A stretch of 30,329 nucleotides of DNA from a virus: positions 1 to 30,329 of IMG/VR virus record IMGVR_UViG_3300040808_000290; one strand, written 5' to 3'. Below the pieces are notes generated by a model. That model was not told where the DNA came from, searched no databases, and worked only from the letters and a program-made list of their open reading frames with translations. The translations under genes were made by a program, and so were the position numbers. Shown piece after piece: positions 12,058-19,759 of the stretch (position 1 is its first letter; each line of letters begins with the position of its first letter).

Positions 12058-13215
12058 TTATCGGATGCTGTACCTCCCGTAATTAGGACGTGCTAGCGTA
12101 TTGTAAATAGAATAGCGCATAGCATCACATCCATGATTAAAGGCGTCTATAGGCTTGTTAGTGACTCGTCCTTGCTTATCCTCGTGGTACTTGTAGTTGC
12201 GTAATTCCTTGATCAAGTTGCTAGACCTAGATGTTACATGAAGCCTGTATCTCCTGATCATGTCAATACCTATGTTGATGCTGTCCCTGCCCTTTGCTGT
12301 TGCTTTTACATTCAAGCCCCTTCTGCGTAGTTCGTCTATAGTCTTAGGCTCTGCACTATCACCCCATATAGGATCATACTTGCTCAGGTTCAATGAAGCA
12401 ATGGTCTTGTAGATATCACTATTAGTCATGCCAACCCTGTAGATCAATTCGTCTGCGTATAAATCGTCCCCTTCTTGATACACCGCTATAAGAGCAGTAG
12501 GATCTGCGCTGTAGCCAAAGTCAAGACCATAGCCTACAAGATTAGCAGACGTGGGTATCTGTTGACATTCATTGTAGGTAAATATCAATGACTTGGCTTG
12601 ACCACGTTCTCCTAGACCATACACTCTCCAATAGTTCTCGTCAATACTCTTTAGCCGTTCTATTTCTGCTATGACACTATCTTCTAGAAACGGGTTGTCT
12701 AGATAGGTGGTTTGATAAAAGTCTGCATCGTCACGCGTAATGACCTCATCGTATATCCAATGAAATTCGTCACTAGGGTTGTAGTCTATAATGATCCGTT
12801 CTGTGGTACGCAAAGACAATTGACGCCAATCTTCGATGCTTAGTTCATTAGCCTCATTAGCAAACAGGACATCACGCTTGCGTCCCCTAATTTTTTGTGG
12901 TTGATCCATGCCTATGAATTCGACTAGATTTCCATTTAAGGTGATCTCGCTATTGGACTTGTTGTGATAGTCCTCGTTATATAGACCTAGCTTCATAAGA
13001 ATATCTATAAAGTCACGCATTGCTGATGCCCTCAATGAGGGGTAAGTCTTACGACATAATGTAATGGTCTTGCCTGTGTTCCTAAGAGCATAGGATACCA
13101 CAAGCCATATAAGGATGTTGTAAGTCTTGCCTGACCTTGTACCCCCCTGCTCTACAATGATGCGCTTAGTGGACGCCTCAAGGTGTTTGAATACAACATT
13201 AGTCTGTATTTCCAT
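12058..13215 (-). CDS. terL: Terminase large subunit
   Basis: 385 residues. It is the packaging motor: an ATPase that drives DNA into the prohead and a nuclease that cuts the concatemer. Walker A is GGTRSGKT (24-31), Walker B is DVLFANEANEL (115-125), the coupling region includes IIIDYNPSDEFHW (141-153), and the RNase H-like nuclease domain begins at YGLDFGYSADPTALIAV (229-245) with later acidic residues near IWGDSAEPKTIDELRRRG and KPIDAFNHGCDAMRYSI. This is the Terminase_3 / PBSX-like family, at near normal length. The gene overlaps the small subunit by 17 bp and is the last gene of the long coupled cassette before the second promoter. Confidence 0.95.
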   Translation of the reverse strand: MEIQTNVVFKHLEASTKRIIVEQGGTRSGKTYNILIWLVVSYALRNTGKTITLCRKTYPSLRASAMRDFIDILMKLGLYNEDYHNKSNSEITLNGNLVEFIGMDQPQKIRGRKRDVLFANEANELSIEDWRQLSLRTTERIIIDYNPSDEFHWIYDEVITRDDADFYQTTYLDNPFLEDSVIAEIERLKSIDENYWRVYGLGERGQAKSLIFTYNECQQIPTSANLVGYGLDFGYSADPTALIAVYQEGDDLYADELIYRVGMTNSDIYKTIASLNLSKYDPIWGDSAEPKTIDELRRRGLNVKATAKGRDSINIGIDMIRRYRLHVTSRSSNLIKELRNYKYHEDKQGRVTNKPIDAFNHGCDAMRYSIYNTLARPNYGRYSIR

Positions 13216-13564
13216 CTAGTATTCGTACAATGATAGGCTCTGTGTCTGCACCTGTGATTTCTGTACGTTCTACATAGCCCCTGCTCTTGCCCTTTGTCTT
13301 TAAATAGAATATCGTAGCACTTGTGTTGCCATCATTGATCTGTTGGTGCAGTTGACTTTCCGCAAAGTCCAATGCTACGTTCTCCAATTCTTGAGCCTGC
13401 TGTCTGTATTCTTTATCCTCGCGTAACCACCTGTAATGAGTTTCCCTGCTGATGCCTACATTCTTACAGGCAGTAGTCACCACTCCTAGACTTTTTTCTA
13501 GGGCTTCAATCATTGCCTTTTTTCTTGTGTCATTTTTTGTCATCGTGTCTACTTTGGTTTCCAT
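13199..13564 (-). CDS. terS: Terminase small subunit
   Basis: 121 residues. Small subunits recognise packaging sites and stimulate the large subunit. A helix-turn-helix is visible at about residues 24-48 (LGVVTTACKNVGISRETHYR), then a helical oligomerisation section (ALDFAESQLHQQINDGN) and TSATIFYLKTKGKSRGYVER, a phrase frequent in TerS proteins and in the related Terminase_5 type. Its start overlaps the preceding ParB-like gene by 16 bp and its end overlaps TerL by 17 bp. I place high trust in this because of the pairing with TerL. Confidence 0.88.
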   Translation of the reverse strand: METKVDTMTKNDTRKKAMIEALEKSLGVVTTACKNVGISRETHYRWLREDKEYRQQAQELENVALDFAESQLHQQINDGNTSATIFYLKTKGKSRGYVERTEITGADTEPIIVRILDGNTD

Positions 13565-14070
13565 GCTTTTGAATACGGCTTGTCAAGGTCGGGGTGTCCC
13601 ATTACTCCCTGCGTATTGGTTAGTCTTATAACTTCCTCACGTTCCATCTTAAGGCGTTTCATAACCTCCTGTACACTTAGACCGCTGTCCAACATATTCT
13701 GCACTATACGCCCCATTTCTAAGACACCATGTCTACCTCTTGCTCTATTGTGTCTTATGGTAGACATTTGTTGATGTTCTTCGTTTGTTGGTCTTAATAT
13801 GACTACAGGAACAAAGCCTTCTGTTATTGCGTATATCTCGTCATAACCACTACATGTCCATCTATGAAAGCCGTCTACAATGGTCATGTCAGGGTTGGCT
13901 ACTATAGGTTGTGTCCACCCGTCCTCTTTTATACTTGTCACAAGTAGTTCTAATTCAGGGGGTGCTACAGAATTGGGGTTGTAGTTATTCGGTTGAAGTT
14001 CGCTTCTATGTATCCACTTCAATTCGTCTAGTGGCATTGGTCTGCCATCACTTAGCGTTCTTTTTTTCAT
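13549..14070 (-). CDS. ParB/Srx-fold protein, IbrB-like
   Basis: 173 residues. ParB-fold core at 20-115: HRSELQPNNYNPN, VTSIKEDGWTQPIVANPDM, then the ParB box TIVDGFHRW (63-71) and ATIRHNRARGRH-like STIRHNRARGRH (103-114), followed by a helical HTH-like part (LSVQEVMKRLKMEREEVIRL). This arrangement closely matches IbrB of Escherichia coli, encoded with the PAPS-reductase-like IbrA and reported as a regulator of prophage-borne Eib genes. Here too it directly follows an IbrA-like gene (23-bp overlap). ParB-fold domains bind or hydrolyse nucleotides (CTP, ATP) and may cut DNA. What this one does is not known. Confidence 0.85.
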   Translation of the reverse strand: MKKRTLSDGRPMPLDELKWIHRSELQPNNYNPNSVAPPELELLVTSIKEDGWTQPIVANPDMTIVDGFHRWTCSGYDEIYAITEGFVPVVILRPTNEEHQQMSTIRHNRARGRHGVLEMGRIVQNMLDSGLSVQEVMKRLKMEREEVIRLTNTQGVMGHPDLDKPYSKAWKPK

Positions 14071-15334
14071 AGTATCTTTTTATATATTCTGCTGTTCCAA
14101 ATTGATTGACTGCTTCGTCCCTTGTAAGACCTGCTCGTTTTCTTGCTTTCTTAGATAGTGTTGGTACTTTCTGCAGGTTTCTTTCCTTGCTGTCACCCCG
14201 TATAGCTATCCTTGCCAAGAATTCCCATGATACACCTGTGAGTGGGCAGCTATCCTTCTCTGCTTCTGCTATTGGATAGTCTGTTTGGTTGGTGTGCCAC
14301 TTGACAATCTTACGCATAGATCGTTTTACTAGCTTGCGTGACTCAGGTGACATCTTGCTCAATAGAGCCAACGTATATTCACTCCACTTGACGTTATCTT
14401 CTTTCTCTATGTTTGTTCCTGTGTATAAACCATGATTGCAGTATCTCCATGCTGTCTTTATTCCTTCGGCTCGTTCTAATAACTTGTGCCAATAGTCCCC
14501 GTAAAATTCACGCCATTGATCCAATGTCCTTAGACTTTCTTCTGCGTATATACTTCCTACACGTTGCTTGTTTAGCTTCATGTAGTTCTTGCCTTTGTTC
14601 ATGGTGTCGTACTCTGTATTGTATGGTAGACCTGTTTCTCTAATGTACTTCCAAACGTCATGAGCGTTCCAATCATATATTGGATATGCAATAGAATCTA
14701 CACCACTTAGATAGCACTCGTTTTTCTTGCGTGTCATGATCGTATAGCGTGCCATTGACTCTTCTGCTCGTATTCCTACCAACGATATGGCAGTAACGCC
14801 TTTCTTGATGTAGTTATCTCTATGCAAGTCTACCATTTCACCAAAGTCTAGTTTATTCTTGACAGCATTGGCTCTAAAAGGAAGCCCATCGGGGTGTTCG
14901 TAGTTAGGATCTGTTTGAAATACATGACCTTCTAGTTCTGTTATTGCAAAGTCAGGCTTTTGCCTTACCCACAACTGCTTTTCGTCAGGATGCCAAGGAT
15001 ACCAAAGAGGTGCATACATGCTTCCTGCATTTCTTAGACTAAACGGGACAGCATACCAATGTAAATCCACTTCAGGCATAGCGTATATCTCTTCTAGCAG
15101 TTTAATTGTTCCTAGCCCCTCTGCTTCATGATCTATGTATGTGCATTCCACAGGTAGCTTTCCTATTTCTCGTGCTACCTCAATGGTGATATACAGCATT
15201 GCGGTTGAGTCTTTACCCCCTGAAAAGTTTACGATCACTTTGTCGTAGCTATCATACAGGTATTTAATGCGCTTCTTAGCACCCTCTACGCATGTGTAGT
15301 CTTGATAGTCTTTTTTTAAGATTGTACTCGCCAT
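14048..15334 (-). CDS. PP-loop ATPase / PAPS reductase-like, IbrA (DUF3440)-like
   Basis: 428 residues from ATG at 15334 (an in-frame TTG at 15346 is less likely). PP-loop SGGKDS at 38-43 within VIVNFSGGKDSTAMLY binds ATP or PAPS; a second motif SLVGIRAEESMARY lies at 184-197 and AYPIYDWNAHDVWKYI at 216-231, all typical of the PAPS reductase and N-type ATP pyrophosphatase fold. The 200-residue C-terminal part (with IKTAWRYCNHGLYTGTN and a final TAEYIKRYY) resembles the DUF3440 extension of IbrA proteins. PAPS reductases reduce sulfate donors, while relatives adenylate substrates. The family has both roles, so the chemistry is open. It overlaps a glutaminase gene upstream and an IbrB-like gene downstream. 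Confidence 0.88.
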   Translation of the reverse strand: MASTILKKDYQDYTCVEGAKKRIKYLYDSYDKVIVNFSGGKDSTAMLYITIEVAREIGKLPVECTYIDHEAEGLGTIKLLEEIYAMPEVDLHWYAVPFSLRNAGSMYAPLWYPWHPDEKQLWVRQKPDFAITELEGHVFQTDPNYEHPDGLPFRANAVKNKLDFGEMVDLHRDNYIKKGVTAISLVGIRAEESMARYTIMTRKKNECYLSGVDSIAYPIYDWNAHDVWKYIRETGLPYNTEYDTMNKGKNYMKLNKQRVGSIYAEESLRTLDQWREFYGDYWHKLLERAEGIKTAWRYCNHGLYTGTNIEKEDNVKWSEYTLALLSKMSPESRKLVKRSMRKIVKWHTNQTDYPIAEAEKDSCPLTGVSWEFLARIAIRGDSKERNLQKVPTLSKKARKRAGLTRDEAVNQFGTAEYIKRYYEKKNAK

Positions 15335-15852
15335 TCTTTGCTGCAATAATAGTCGGTTGATATGTATTTGTGATGTATCAAAGGTAGTTGCTTTTGATAT
15401 CCTATAAACTTGTAGCTATACTTGGTGTATTCTATAGCTAGAAAAGCACCTTTAATCTTTGCTACGTTGTTTTTAATCATAGGTATCAAGGCTTCGCTGT
15501 CTAGATTAGTTCTTGGTTTGTAGCCTAAGCTATACATGATCATTTTGTGTTCTTTTATGTTTCCATTGTGAACCACAGCCACGCCATCACCTAAGACAGG
15601 TTGACTATTCATGATCTGCATGTCTCCGCTAGTGACTAATCTGCTATGACCTATACCTACAACACATCTAGAAGCAAGGTTTACAAGCAAGTCTACGTCC
15701 ACCCGTCCATGACTTACATGGTATATGTGTTGATCTTTAGCCGTAATCCCAAAGAAGCCATACCCATGACCACCACGCTCGTCTGCTCGTGTTATAATTC
15801 CTTCAAGTTGGTACTCGTCAGGTTTACCCTCAAATCCCCATATTCCGCACAT
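15316..15852 (-). CDS. Stand-alone class II glutamine amidotransferase
   Basis: 178 residues from ATG at 15852, so that Cys2 becomes the N-terminal residue after Met removal; a GTG four codons earlier (15864) would block this. The catalytic set of the Ntn-hydrolase GATase II family (GlmS, PurF, AsnB) is all present: Cys2 in MCGIWGFEG, GIGHSRLVTSGD (66-77, Arg71), VVHNGNIKEH (93-102, Asn96/Gly97), TNLDSEALI (115-123). The fold hydrolyses glutamine and passes ammonia to a partner. No synthetase domain is fused, unlike most members. The gene lies between two PP-loop ATPase genes and overlaps both (23 and 19 bp), which suggests the partner is one of them. Confidence 0.88.
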   Translation of the reverse strand: MCGIWGFEGKPDEYQLEGIITRADERGGHGYGFFGITAKDQHIYHVSHGRVDVDLLVNLASRCVVGIGHSRLVTSGDMQIMNSQPVLGDGVAVVHNGNIKEHKMIMYSLGYKPRTNLDSEALIPMIKNNVAKIKGAFLAIEYTKYSYKFIGYQKQLPLIHHKYISTDYYCSKEWRVQS

Positions 15853-16618
15853 ATGCTTCTGCACTTGGTATTAGAGTTGCTGCTTCTTTCACGACATTAG
15901 GATCTATGCTGTAGACTTCCTGCCAACCTTTTTCTATGCTTCCTGTCCATTGACGGGCTGCCCAACATCCACTACCTACTACCCATCCATTGATCCAATT
16001 ATAGAAAGGTGCTATAGGCAGGTTGTAGTAATGCATGACTCCTAGAGTTTCCTCGTGTGACCAATCATAAATAGGGCTGTATCTTACAACCTGTGTTCCT
16101 TTGTTCTTGTAGATACCATTCTTACCGCAGTAGTTGCTGTCTTTATTCCTGCGTCCTGTGATCAATACGTCTAGATTTTTATCTTTCCAAAAAGTGTTCT
16201 GCGCCTTGTGTTGGATATTGATAAACCATTGCTTGGCTATATTGCTGTCTTTAGGAAAGAGCATATGTAGATTTTCACTAAGCCATTTGAGCGTATGTCC
16301 GCTGTTATACACTTTTAGATCGTGTGGCATGTTGTTAGTCACATACTGCATAAACTCGGGATATTCTAGATCATGAGTCATACCAATACAGCTAGGGAAT
16401 TCTTTACCCAACCTTCGCAGCATGAAATCTACTACAACACTATCCTTACCGCCACTCCACGCACTTCCATATCGCACTTGACCTCCAAGCACTTCTTGCA
16501 TTTTCCATAGCGTCTTATCAATCCTATTGTCTACCTCCCATTTGGATATAATTGTCTCTATGTTGTTCCATGTGTGCAAAAACCTCTTGTTGTCCTCGCG
16601 CTGCTTTCTACCTAACAT
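15830..16618 (-). CDS. PP-loop ATPase / PAPS reductase-like protein
   Basis: 262 residues. The PP-loop is SAWSGGKDSVVVDFM (52-66); other family motifs are VLITGRRNKDSN (151-162) and RYSPIYDWSHEETLGVMHYY (179-198). The protein resembles PAPS reductase, DndC and related N-type ATP pyrophosphatases, but is clearly different in sequence from the larger IbrA-like protein nearby. A C-terminal Cys/aromatic segment (VVGSGCWAARQW) may replace the C-terminal Cys tail of PAPS reductase, though the classic ECGLH-type active site is not visible. Its ATG overlaps the cupin stop as TAATG. The substrate is unknown. Confidence 0.85.
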   Translation of the reverse strand: MLGRKQREDNKRFLHTWNNIETIISKWEVDNRIDKTLWKMQEVLGGQVRYGSAWSGGKDSVVVDFMLRRLGKEFPSCIGMTHDLEYPEFMQYVTNNMPHDLKVYNSGHTLKWLSENLHMLFPKDSNIAKQWFINIQHKAQNTFWKDKNLDVLITGRRNKDSNYCGKNGIYKNKGTQVVRYSPIYDWSHEETLGVMHYYNLPIAPFYNWINGWVVGSGCWAARQWTGSIEKGWQEVYSIDPNVVKEAATLIPSAEAYVRNMGI

Positions 16619-17418
16619 TACTTCGTGCGTATTTCTTCGATTTGATTTGCACTCACCCCATCTACTATAGTCCTGTTAATCATAGGGTGGTCTATGTCTG
16701 TAGCCCCAAAGTCACTATCAGGGTGAAAGGCTATGACATCCATTGACTCGTCAAAGGTTTGGAAGCAATGCGTACCTGTTGGATACATTTCCCCATCTAA
16801 CCCTGTATCATATGACGTGCCGTCCCATTCTTTGATTACGAATATCATACCCTCTGTGAGTGGCAAGTCACCAAAAGGTGTGATGCACTTCCCGTTTCCT
16901 TTGGCTACTATTCCTATCCTGTGGCTAGGGTGTGTGTGAGGCGTTTGTTCAATCTTGCTAGGAAAGTGTAGGTGGTTTAAACAAGGATCACCCATCTTGA
17001 CAGGGGGTATCAATAGACTATCTGTGCAGCCGTCTATATACTTGAGCCTTCCTTCGGCTTCAATAGGACCTCCAATCATGTGCTGTGCCATAAATTTTGT
17101 CTGTGGATATACACCTCTTTCATGAAATACCTCTATGACTATGCACTTTCCGTTGACCTTTGCAAACTTCCACTTTCCTGTGATTGTTGCGTATTGATGC
17201 TGATGAACATGACATAGCCATCTTAACCCAAGCCTATCTAATAGAGTCAAACCTTCATAGCAGTATATGTAATATGAGGCACTTTCTCTTGGCGTGTGCA
17301 TTCCTTGCCCGTCTATTACATTATAATACCTTAGAGGGTATTCTTTGTGGCTTCCTTGGTCAAATATCAACCCTGCCTCTGCTCTGTCAAATGATATAAA
17401 ACTGCTGTTCTCTCTCAT
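16618..17418 (-). CDS. Cupin-fold protein
   Basis: 266 residues. The C-terminal half has the two cupin blocks: motif 1 around LHFP, then TPHTHPSHRIGIVAKGNGKC (159-178; His161, His163 and His166 as possible metal ligands) and motif 2 DGEMYPTGTHCFQT (208-221; the P-x-G-x-H pattern, His217). The first half carries another His-rich sequence (LRWLCHVHQHQYATITGKW, 65-83), possibly a second, weaker cupin block or a partner domain. Cupins include dioxygenases, isomerases and small-molecule sensors, so the function is open. It sits between ParB and PP-loop genes in a coupled operon. No membrane or signal segment. Confidence 0.75.
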   Translation of the reverse strand: MRENSSFISFDRAEAGLIFDQGSHKEYPLRYYNVIDGQGMHTPRESASYYIYCYEGLTLLDRLGLRWLCHVHQHQYATITGKWKFAKVNGKCIVIEVFHERGVYPQTKFMAQHMIGGPIEAEGRLKYIDGCTDSLLIPPVKMGDPCLNHLHFPSKIEQTPHTHPSHRIGIVAKGNGKCITPFGDLPLTEGMIFVIKEWDGTSYDTGLDGEMYPTGTHCFQTFDESMDVIAFHPDSDFGATDIDHPMINRTIVDGVSANQIEEIRTK

Positions 17419-18002
17419 GGCTTGTATTGTTTCACTACGATCATAAGTGCTTCGGCTAATGTGACGTCATGTTCTTTGCGTACTCTTGCAAGCGTTTCTA
17501 CAAGAAACTGCTTATCTTCCTCTAGCATGACTATTTCATAGCGCACATATCCATCGTCTGTTATCTTTGGTTTCTCAATACTAGGCACATCGTCTAGAGG
17601 TTCTGTTTCTTCTTCCATATCTAAGAAACTTGTAGGTGTTCCAAAGTTGTAAGGCTCAAAACCCCACGCTACAAGATCCTCTTGCTTCCAATTATCTGCT
17701 AGCATGTCCCAATCCCATTCACCATAATTTTGATTATCCTTTATTATGAGTTGGTCTTTTTGCTCTTGGCTCAGGTCTTTAGCTACGATTACAGGCACTT
17801 TCTTTAGACCTGCCTCCATACATGCTCGGTATCTCATGTTTCCTGCTAAGATTACATTCTCATCATCGACAATGATTGGTCTGTATTCTAGCATTTCAGG
17901 GAATTCTTTGACGCTGTTGACTAGCTTCTTAAAGGCATGCTCCTTGATCAAACGTGGATTTTCTTCGTTTGGAACAAGTGTTTTAATGTCTACTTTTTTC
18001 AT
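17415..18002 (-). CDS. ParB-like nuclease-domain protein
   Basis: 195 residues. The ParB N-terminal domain covers residues 1-105: IKTLVPNEENPRLIKEHAFK, RPIIVDDENVILAGNMRYRA (41-60, the ParB box, GNMRYRA replacing GERRxRA), then VPVIVAKDLSQEQKDQLIIK and DNQNYGEWDWDMLADNW. Many phage members of this domain are fused to or encoded near DNA methylases or modification enzymes; here no methylase is present. The C-terminal 85 residues are acidic and then helical. It is the first gene of the six-gene cassette, after the HNH gene, and overlaps the cupin start by 4 bp. Confidence 0.85.
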   Translation of the reverse strand: MKKVDIKTLVPNEENPRLIKEHAFKKLVNSVKEFPEMLEYRPIIVDDENVILAGNMRYRACMEAGLKKVPVIVAKDLSQEQKDQLIIKDNQNYGEWDWDMLADNWKQEDLVAWGFEPYNFGTPTSFLDMEEETEPLDDVPSIEKPKITDDGYVRYEIVMLEEDKQFLVETLARVRKEHDVTLAEALMIVVKQYKP

Positions 18003-18255
18003 TTCGTTTTTTCATTTGGCGCATATGCACCTGTTTTAGATATGATTTATGCTCTACAACATCACCTAGTTGATCGTGGTGGTGACGGCATAGTGCCATT
18101 AAGTTTTCTATGACGTCTGCATTTGGATTACCTCCCATACCTCTACGTTCTATGTGGTGTATGTCTACAGCCTTGCTTCCGCATATCTCGCAGGGTATGA
18201 AATCGGAGATGTCGTAATGCATCTCCGTTAGGTATATCCGCGTATGCTTTTTCAT
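17983..18255 (-). CDS. HNH endonuclease
   Basis: 90 residues with one HNH domain: CEIC (22-25) zinc-type pair, DIHHIERRGMGG (31-42), the Asn/acid section VIENLMALCRHHHDQLG (48-64). HNH proteins nick or cut DNA; in many phages an HNH enzyme helps terminase or assists recombination and replication. The gene overlaps its neighbours by 4 bp upstream and 20 bp downstream and is about 4.4 kb before the terminase genes. No intron or intein context is visible, so a homing role is not favoured. Confidence 0.9.
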   Translation of the reverse strand: MKKHTRIYLTEMHYDISDFIPCEICGSKAVDIHHIERRGMGGNPNADVIENLMALCRHHHDQLGDVVEHKSYLKQVHMRQMKKRNEKSRH

Positions 18256-18838: not shown

Positions 18839-19266
18839 TTGCTTTGATCTACTAAGTATGCTTTGTAAAGTTCGTCTATTTCATGCACTAATCTAGCCCA
18901 CTCACTAGGCGCACAGGTACAAGGCATTTCAGGTTTTTTCTTAAACACCTCTGCGTGGAATTCACTTACCTCTTTTCTTTGTTTGTGAGTCAAGCGCATA
19001 GGATCTACGTTTATGGTTTCCCATCTTAAGGCTTGATCTCTAGTCATGCACTCTATATTCTTGTATCTAAACCTCTCGTTTAGCCAATTCTTACGGCTCT
19101 CACAACCACAATCTACTCCTAAGGCTTCCGATACCACCTCTACCGCTTTCTTAATTCCTGTGGCTTCTGTTACCTTTTCAATCGTATCTCCTAGTCCTTG
19201 ACTTTTTGGACGGCTTACACGCTTTCTTTTCCGTTTTGCCGTAGATTTTTTCGACTTGTCCTCCAT
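18835..19266 (-). CDS. Hypothetical Cys-containing protein, basic N-terminus
   Basis: 143 residues. Residues 1-24 are strongly basic (KKSTAKRKRKRVSRPKSQ). The next part, GLGDTIEKVTEATGIKKAVE (25-44) then ALGVDCGCESRKNWLNERF, is a pattern I recall in an uncharacterised flavobacterial phage family. A late CTC pair (MPCTCAPSEW) with the earlier CGC could bind metal. The start overlaps the sigma-like gene by 89 bp, long for this genome, so a start further in is possible, but the GLGDT segment must be retained. Role unknown. Confidence 0.6.
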   Translation of the reverse strand: MEDKSKKSTAKRKRKRVSRPKSQGLGDTIEKVTEATGIKKAVEVVSEALGVDCGCESRKNWLNERFRYKNIECMTRDQALRWETINVDPMRLTHKQRKEVSEFHAEVFKKKPEMPCTCAPSEWARLVHEIDELYKAYLVDQSK

Positions 19267-19759
19267 GTTTTTCTCGAATTATTTGTTTGACATTCTGTAT
19301 AGTGTTGTTTATGCTTGTTCTAGATATACCTGTTTTGTCTGCAAGTTGACGAATACTCTTACCGCTTCGTATATAAAACAAGAATAGTTCACGATCATAC
19401 CAATGCAGTTCTTGAAGTGTGTCATATATGCTTTGCAGTAAGTGGTGAAATTCATGTTCGTCTGTATTGCTTTCTTGCTCTTCCTTATCATGCAGGTTCA
19501 CTACAAGTGTCTGCTCTTTTTGCTTGCGTCTTAGGGACGTGTGGGCATTGTTTATCATTGCAAAGATATAAATGCTGTTTACATCACCTTCATTATTTGT
19601 TATGCTGCAAAGGTCACCTTCATTAGACGCTTTTAAACACAATTTGTAGTACATGTCTTGCACAATATCTTCAGCCTCGTCTTGGCTTGCTCCACAATAA
19701 ACGGCTATCTTGATCCATTCGTTATGTCTAGAATATATGTACTCAACAGATACACACAT
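19178..19759 (-). CDS. Sigma-70 family factor
   Basis: 193 residues. Region 2 spans about 8-45 with YSRHNEWIKIAVYCGASQDE then AEDIVQDMYYKLCLK, the standard ECF-type core-binding pattern; a linker with charged residues follows; region 4 spans about 115-165 with LQELHWYDRELFLFYI, SGKSIRQLADKTGISRTSIN and NTIQNVKQIIREK (HTH). The tail is basic. Such proteins direct RNA polymerase to a subset of promoters. A phage-borne one near the middle of the genome suggests a switch from early to late genes. The start at 19759 is the only Met before region 2. A TerS-like or other HTH role cannot be excluded. Confidence 0.75.
   Translation of the reverse strand: MCVSVEYIYSRHNEWIKIAVYCGASQDEAEDIVQDMYYKLCLKASNEGDLCSITNNEGDVNSIYIFAMINNAHTSLRRKQKEQTLVVNLHDKEEQESNTDEHEFHHLLQSIYDTLQELHWYDRELFLFYIRSGKSIRQLADKTGISRTSINNTIQNVKQIIREKHGGQVEKIYGKTEKKACKPSKKSRTRRYD

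Follow-up and report, generated by a model that had tools for sequence, protein, structure and literature searches.

The 30,329-base window analysed here, which is the whole of the IMG/VR virus record IMGVR_UViG_3300040808_000290, carries on its minus strand a cassette of six open reading frames (18002-13549) in the transcription order ParB1, cupin, PPL1, GAT, IbrA and ParB2. These six genes turned out to be one version of a broader, modular family of phage cassettes. Its core, located next to the terminase, comprises the two ParB proteins and an IbrA-like PP-loop enzyme, whereas the cupin, PPL1, GAT and a symporter are exchangeable. The cassette may well be a mobile unit for chemical hypermodification, most likely of phage DNA bases, a reading for and against which we consider the balance to be about even. 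More tentatively, it could represent an undescribed class of system, in which an IbrA-type enzyme on two ParB clamps would activate the DNA base directly, with plug-in supply by a symporter or cupin and plug-in amidation by a glutaminase and a PP-loop protein. The components of the cassette are as follows.

17415..18002, minus strand: ParB1 (Pfam ParB_N, E = 7.6e-10; PADLOC MTase_II N-terminal region, 2.1e-11)
16618..17418, minus strand: predicted bicupin enzyme (AlphaFold2 model with a predicted local distance difference test score, pLDDT, of 90.7; bicupin fold matches up to Z 18.2)
15830..16618, minus strand: PPL1, an N-type ATP pyrophosphatase of the PP-loop type (PAPS_reduct, E = 5e-10)
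15316..15852, minus strand: GAT, a class II glutaminase of 178 amino acids (GATase_6, E = 1e-6)
15316..16617, minus strand: detachable PPL1+GAT module, exactly the block skipped in blastn comparisons with loci L092, L093 and L094
14048..15334, minus strand: IbrA-like PP-loop enzyme (PAPS_reduct, E = 1.8e-12; DUF3440, E = 1.9e-7)
13549..14070, minus strand: ParB2, IbrB-like, directly after IbrA (ParB_N, E = 7.5e-6; phrog_2159, 1.1e-61)

An earlier note, made from the sequence alone, had named these six genes in this order. Five of them were recovered by Pfam matches, and the cupin, which had no Pfam, PHROG or NCBIfam match by sequence, was recognized by its predicted bicupin fold. The note had also proposed that the genes form one pathway, and knew of no described system with the full set. 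To examine their co-occurrence, we scanned viral sequences with a PPL1 profile (at least 107 loci, 80 kept) and a cupin profile (at least 187 loci, 80 kept), and mapped family hidden Markov models on 160 loci. Given that the samples were picked by profile and capped in number, the counts below are not abundances, and the IMG/VR records may be fragments. The order seen in the window, ParB1-cupin-PPL1-GAT-IbrA-ParB2 (form B), was present in 12 other viral loci, complete or cut by contig ends, and thus in 13 loci with the window; some of these loci have unrelated terminases. The homologues therefore do not simply occur apart from one another, and such recurrence is beyond what chance would give for gene order. 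The remaining arrangements were symporter-PPL1-ParB1-IbrA-ParB2 (form A, 67 loci), ParB1-cupin-IbrA-ParB2 (form D, 57 loci), form D with a diverged PPL1 inserted, ParB1-cupin-PPL1'-IbrA-ParB2 (form E, 14 loci), and two loci with PPL1 and GAT but no IbrA nearby (form C). In the literature searched, which included few subscription papers and no preprints, neither the modular family nor this set of six genes was described in any paper that we found, in agreement with the note.

Comparison of the window with four other form B loci (L009, L010, L012 and L014) revealed cassette proteins that were 55-78% identical, with GAT at 40-45% and ParB2 at 72-78%. The terminase, in contrast, shared 23% identity with that of L014 and gave no BLASTP match in L010, L012, L015 or L016. 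Since the cassette proteins are alike while the terminases have diverged or are unmatched, transfer of the cassette among phages must have taken place, although across loci it has stayed adjacent to the terminase.

In cultured phages, the position beside the terminase is also occupied by other genes with a related ParB_N domain, namely the ParB_N-DNA methyltransferase genes of phrog_498; these differ from the cassette, which contains no methyltransferase domain. In Bacteroides phage BS-TP3, gp51, which resembles ParB1 (42% identity across 114 residues), and gp52, which combines ParB_N with Methyltransf_23, precede the terminase small and large subunits (TerS and TerL), and in Streptococcus Javan476 a ParB_N-N6_N4 methylase lies upstream of TerL. 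These examples were selected from matches and are not a systematic count. Relatives of IbrA were present in 215 of 50,697 phage records. In Mycobacterium phage Baloo, a weakly matching ParB gene and two small genes are followed by IbrA, ParB2 and the terminase. In Microbacterium phages Rasputia and Leaf, glycosyl-, acetyl- and methyltransferase genes lead up to a PP-loop gene, identified as IbrA by its profile match in Rasputia, at one end of the genome, and the opposite end begins with three ParB genes and the terminase. Such IbrA-ParB relatives can be grown on harmless laboratory hosts. Neighbours of IbrA in Flavobacterium, Streptococcus and Pseudomonas phages include SNF2 or ResIII helicases. 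Two further arrangements were seen in passing. Acutalibacteraceae phage NatCom_991 (L180:3983-6039) has an HNH gene and then, in this slot, a ParB_N-N6_N4 methylase with a PAPS_reduct PP-loop protein immediately after it, possibly a further variant, and a run of glycosyltransferase genes, an acetyltransferase gene and a methyltransferase gene leading into a PP-loop gene of the IbrA type in Microbacterium Rogerhendrixvirus phages (L171:2086-7143 and L182:5278-10333) resembles a separate hypermodification cluster.

One sign of modularity came from PPL1 and GAT. Blastn alignments with the form D loci L092, L093 and L094 showed 74-78% identity on both flanks and omitted cassette bases 1639-2940, which correspond to PPL1 and GAT; the nearest relative of the window IbrA in a thinned tree was likewise from L092 (82% identity). 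GAT is always near PPL1 within the cassette family, and the GAT-linked PPL1 proteins form one clade (91 in the Shimodaira-Hasegawa-like approximate likelihood ratio test, SH-aLRT) apart from the form A and form E types, this clade being the only part that we use of a quick tree with long branches. PPL1 and GAT were placed outside the cassette in two records, and in that of L073 they share a contig with a complete ParB1-cupin-IbrA-ParB2 set but lie far away from it. No PPL1 or GAT was detected elsewhere in 18 form D records, which may be fragments. Given the exact presence or absence of the block, the GAT-linked clade and the separation in L073, the two genes behave as one unit, in which the glutaminase probably has PPL1, and not IbrA, as its partner. 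Most likely they constitute a split glutamine-dependent amidotransferase. The earlier note had described a glutaminase without a fused synthetase, flanked by two PP-loop proteins; GAT is indeed a separate protein and the arrangement holds, with the choice of partner now narrowed to PPL1. No fusions between any of the six families were found, and domain fusion thus lends the pairing no support.

The active site of GAT is intact. Its true start, ATG-TGT, gives MCGIWGF and places the catalytic Cys at position 2, right behind the initiator Met. Among 18 distinct sequences, the catalytic Cys and the glutamine-site residues R, N, G and D were conserved at 100% and T at 94%, and the window protein has the motifs MCGIWGF, GHSRLVT, VHNGN and DSE. 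Other GAT matches were dropped, namely those to ordinary GlmS in MT835595 and MT835749 and the two genome matches (L167 and L168), which are AsnB-like proteins in polysaccharide-type clusters.

Both PP-loop families retain the SxGKD motif of ATP pyrophosphatases (96 of 98 PPL1 and all 146 IbrA family members). The ECGxH motif of phosphoadenosine phosphosulfate (PAPS) reductase (CysH) was present in none of 244 PPL1 and IbrA proteins, and neither alignment contains an invariant Cys column, so that the conserved cysteine pair of DndC is lacking. According to established enzymology, this combination would indicate ATP-dependent adenylation rather than sulfate reduction or sulfur transfer, and we propose IbrA as the predicted core adenylating enzyme of the cassette. 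Sulfate assimilation by PAPS reductases acting as auxiliary cysH genes, or sulfur insertion in DNA, would fit the Pfam PAPS_reduct and PHROG names, the assignment of phrog 424/2302 to host metabolism in a prophage survey (PMC11318856) and a weak match of the PADLOC DndC model (34 bits, to IbrA only among the six cassette proteins scanned). The motif content argues against both, as does the absence of a cysteine desulfurase from the cassette, and we regard either role as very improbable. The Dnd/Ssp/BrxP phosphorothioation systems resemble the cassette in that a member of the ParB superfamily (DndB) accompanies the PP-loop protein, and differ from it in that the six cassette genes include no desulfurase, DndD or DndE and its PP-loop proteins have no invariant cysteines. 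Phage PP-loop proteins related to these routinely receive the label PAPS reductase and hence pass for sulfur-metabolism genes; as those examined here lack the reductase signatures and lie in a modular cassette with ParB proteins, counts of them as metabolic genes would be inflated.

The structure model of PPL1 (pLDDT of 94) has a PP-loop ATPase fold closest to CysH, and PPL1 gave no QueC match in Pfam or NCBIfam. Its Foldseek structure matches include GMP synthetase as well as TtuA and NcsA, the latter two being in line with modification of RNA (tRNA) that helps phage translation, in the manner of TilS, TtcA, MnmA or Gat-QueC relatives; the best-known PP-loop enzymes that activate base carbonyls act on tRNA. 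We consider this role improbable, since there are no tRNA genes in the window, PPL1 and IbrA lack an invariant Cys, and the two ParB proteins together with the terminase-side position favour DNA over tRNA.

The IbrA protein scored 31.4 bits for DUF3440 (cut-off 25), and its gene overlaps that of ParB2 by 23 nucleotides. The two thus form the IbrA/IbrB-like pair that the earlier note had recognized, a DUF3440 PP-loop protein adjoining a ParB_N protein, as also in YbdN/YbdM of E. coli; a second ParB, the cupin, PPL1, the glutaminase and the linkage to the terminase set the cassette apart. The cassette ParB proteins have the ParB_N domain only and score under the TIGR00180 cut-off. Because the domains and adjacency of IbrA and ParB2 match phage genes annotated IbrA/IbrB, the cassette might, as IbrA/IbrB do in E. 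coli, regulate the expression of prophage or host genes. The intact enzymatic motifs and the presence of a glutaminase, a cupin and a symporter make pure regulation unlikely, however, and a regulatory effect could be secondary to a modification; little probability is therefore assigned to this role. The YbdN/YbdM pair was found in the literature only as a regulated operon (PMC9068703).

How the cassette obtains a small molecule appears to vary among its forms. A Na+/solute symporter (Pfam SSF, 3e-23), which PHROGs lists as phrog_20720 with no known function, was present in 61 of 67 form A loci and in none of 86 loci assigned to other forms, the majority of which carry a cupin; three of the six form A loci without it lie on contigs with no room upstream. 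The same pattern was apparent in whole records (5/5 of form A, 0/9 of forms B and D). In 60 of the 61 loci, the symporter is directly upstream and its frame meets or overlaps that of PPL1. The cupin profile, on the other hand, matches forms B, D and E and not form A, and in L084, a distant form B locus, a different cupin type (Cupin_2, 7.6e-15) takes the same position. This distribution suggests that symporter and cupin are alternative small-molecule supplies. The cupin itself, which we propose makes or trims the small molecule, has 7 His and 3 Cys columns conserved at 97-100% in 66 distinct sequences. Its top fold matches are bicupins of the (S)-ureidoglycine aminohydrolase type (Z 16.7-18.2, 10-13% identity), followed by other bicupins up to 16.2; with so small a margin we did not adopt that activity. 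Cultured phages were also searched for the cupin, and none was found. Examples of the symporter gene, which is of the SSS family and coupled to the form A cassette in tailed phages, were noted at L006:7912-9294 and L047:7075-8499, with the urea symporter DUR3 as the nearest solved structure, from which no substrate can be called. In L084, whose form B cassette is high in GC, an aldehyde dehydrogenase-like gene and a further small cupin-like gene, noted from a translation read by eye, lie downstream of the cassette (L084:13219-15226).

The close joining of a transporter gene to form A cassettes would also fit a small molecule or nucleotide as the final target. The cassette would then produce a metabolite or signal to block the defences of the host or to reprogramme it, and the ParB-fold proteins would act as kinases or NTPases. 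Enzymes of the cupin and glutaminase kinds typically work on small molecules, and ParB1 matches the serine-kinase model SerK weakly (E = 0.044). Adjacency to the terminase, a position common with ParB-methyltransferases, and the helicase neighbours favour DNA instead, and we judge a small-molecule target to be rather unlikely, if less so than the other alternatives.

For DNA hypermodification, the following sequence of steps is envisaged. ParB1 and ParB2, as ParB/Srx-fold nucleoside triphosphate-binding proteins, would load the machinery onto DNA. IbrA would adenylate a group of the base with ATP, and a nucleophile would then replace or join that group. The nucleophile would be a small molecule, imported by the symporter in form A or produced by the bicupin in forms B, D and E. 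In the form found in the window, GAT would free ammonia from glutamine, and PPL1 would adenylate a carboxylate (or carbonyl) for conversion to an amide (or amine), the two proteins together resembling a split AsnB-like amidotransferase. Since the window and L092 differ naturally by exactly PPL1 and GAT, the proposed role of the glutaminase amounts to a prediction of a one-dalton difference.

The earlier note had allowed for modification of a base, a nucleotide or a small molecule. The terminase-side slot shared with ParB-methyltransferases, the helicase and glycosyltransferase neighbours and two analogous phage systems studied by experiment (PMC12783734 and PMC6884629) favour DNA as the putative target. 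Several points weigh against DNA. We found nucleoside data for none of the phages with a cassette, and the cassette contains no recognizable methyltransferase, TGT or hydroxymethylase and hence no evident handle on the base. The enzymes are equally compatible with a tRNA, nucleotide or signal product, and the argument from the slot is one of position alone and draws on few selected examples. Moreover, IbrA/IbrB were first described as regulators, and other activities are known for ParB-fold proteins. If DNA is nevertheless the substrate, the cassette would represent a DNA chemistry that is common among phages and has gone unreported, likely an answer to host restriction.

The first analogue, CmoA-CmoX-CmoY, yields amides of 5-carboxymethylcytosine (PMC12783734). 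Its PP-loop AMP-forming ligase forms an amide on phage DNA, one cluster of CmoY amide ligases has a class II glutaminase domain (predicted activity), and ParBc genes are common nearby (PMC12783734). The cassette differs in that its glutaminase is a separate protein and that IbrA, a cupin and a symporter are added. The second, Gat-QueC of phage 9g and relatives, serves deoxyarchaeosine DNA modification (PMC6884629) and likewise joins a class II glutaminase to a PP-loop ATPase; the cassette instead has two polypeptides and a PP-loop protein of the PAPS-reductase type. Among 18 cassette records, which may be fragments, we detected no CmoA (TIGR00740), no Asn_synthase-family ligase (PF00733; control, 11/14), no TGT/DpdA (PF01702; control, 14/14) and no dUMP/dCMP hydroxymethylase of the hydroxymethyldeoxyuridine/hydroxymethylcytosine (hmdU/hmC) route (PF00303; control, 9/14). 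No C5-methyltransferase (PF00145, CmoX) exceeded the cut-off in these records, with one sub-threshold match in G007, nor did any N6/N4 methyltransferase. Judged by these profiles, the cassette belongs to neither the 7-deazaguanine nor the CmoA/X/Y pathway within the records searched.

The genes that adjoin the cassette in the window are as follows.

17983..18255, minus strand: HNH endonuclease (Pfam HNH, 1e-5), the first gene of the run, overlapping ParB1 by 20 nucleotides
13199..13564, minus strand: TerS, terminase small subunit (phrog_4102, 4e-7), the downstream neighbour of the cassette
12058..13215, minus strand: TerL, terminase large subunit (phrog_2, 7e-44)

Consecutive cassette genes are joined by overlaps of 1 to 23 nucleotides, and these neighbours overlap likewise, so that HNH to TerL is one gapless run of nine overlapping genes. 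The limits given in the earlier note, 13549-18002, therefore hold for the six genes and not for the extent of the run. The HNH endonuclease, a type of gene that commonly adjoins the terminase, is probably packaging-related and outside the cassette proper. Upstream of the run, a sigma-70 region 4-like protein (window positions 19178-19759, E = 4e-6) is a possible late-gene regulator.

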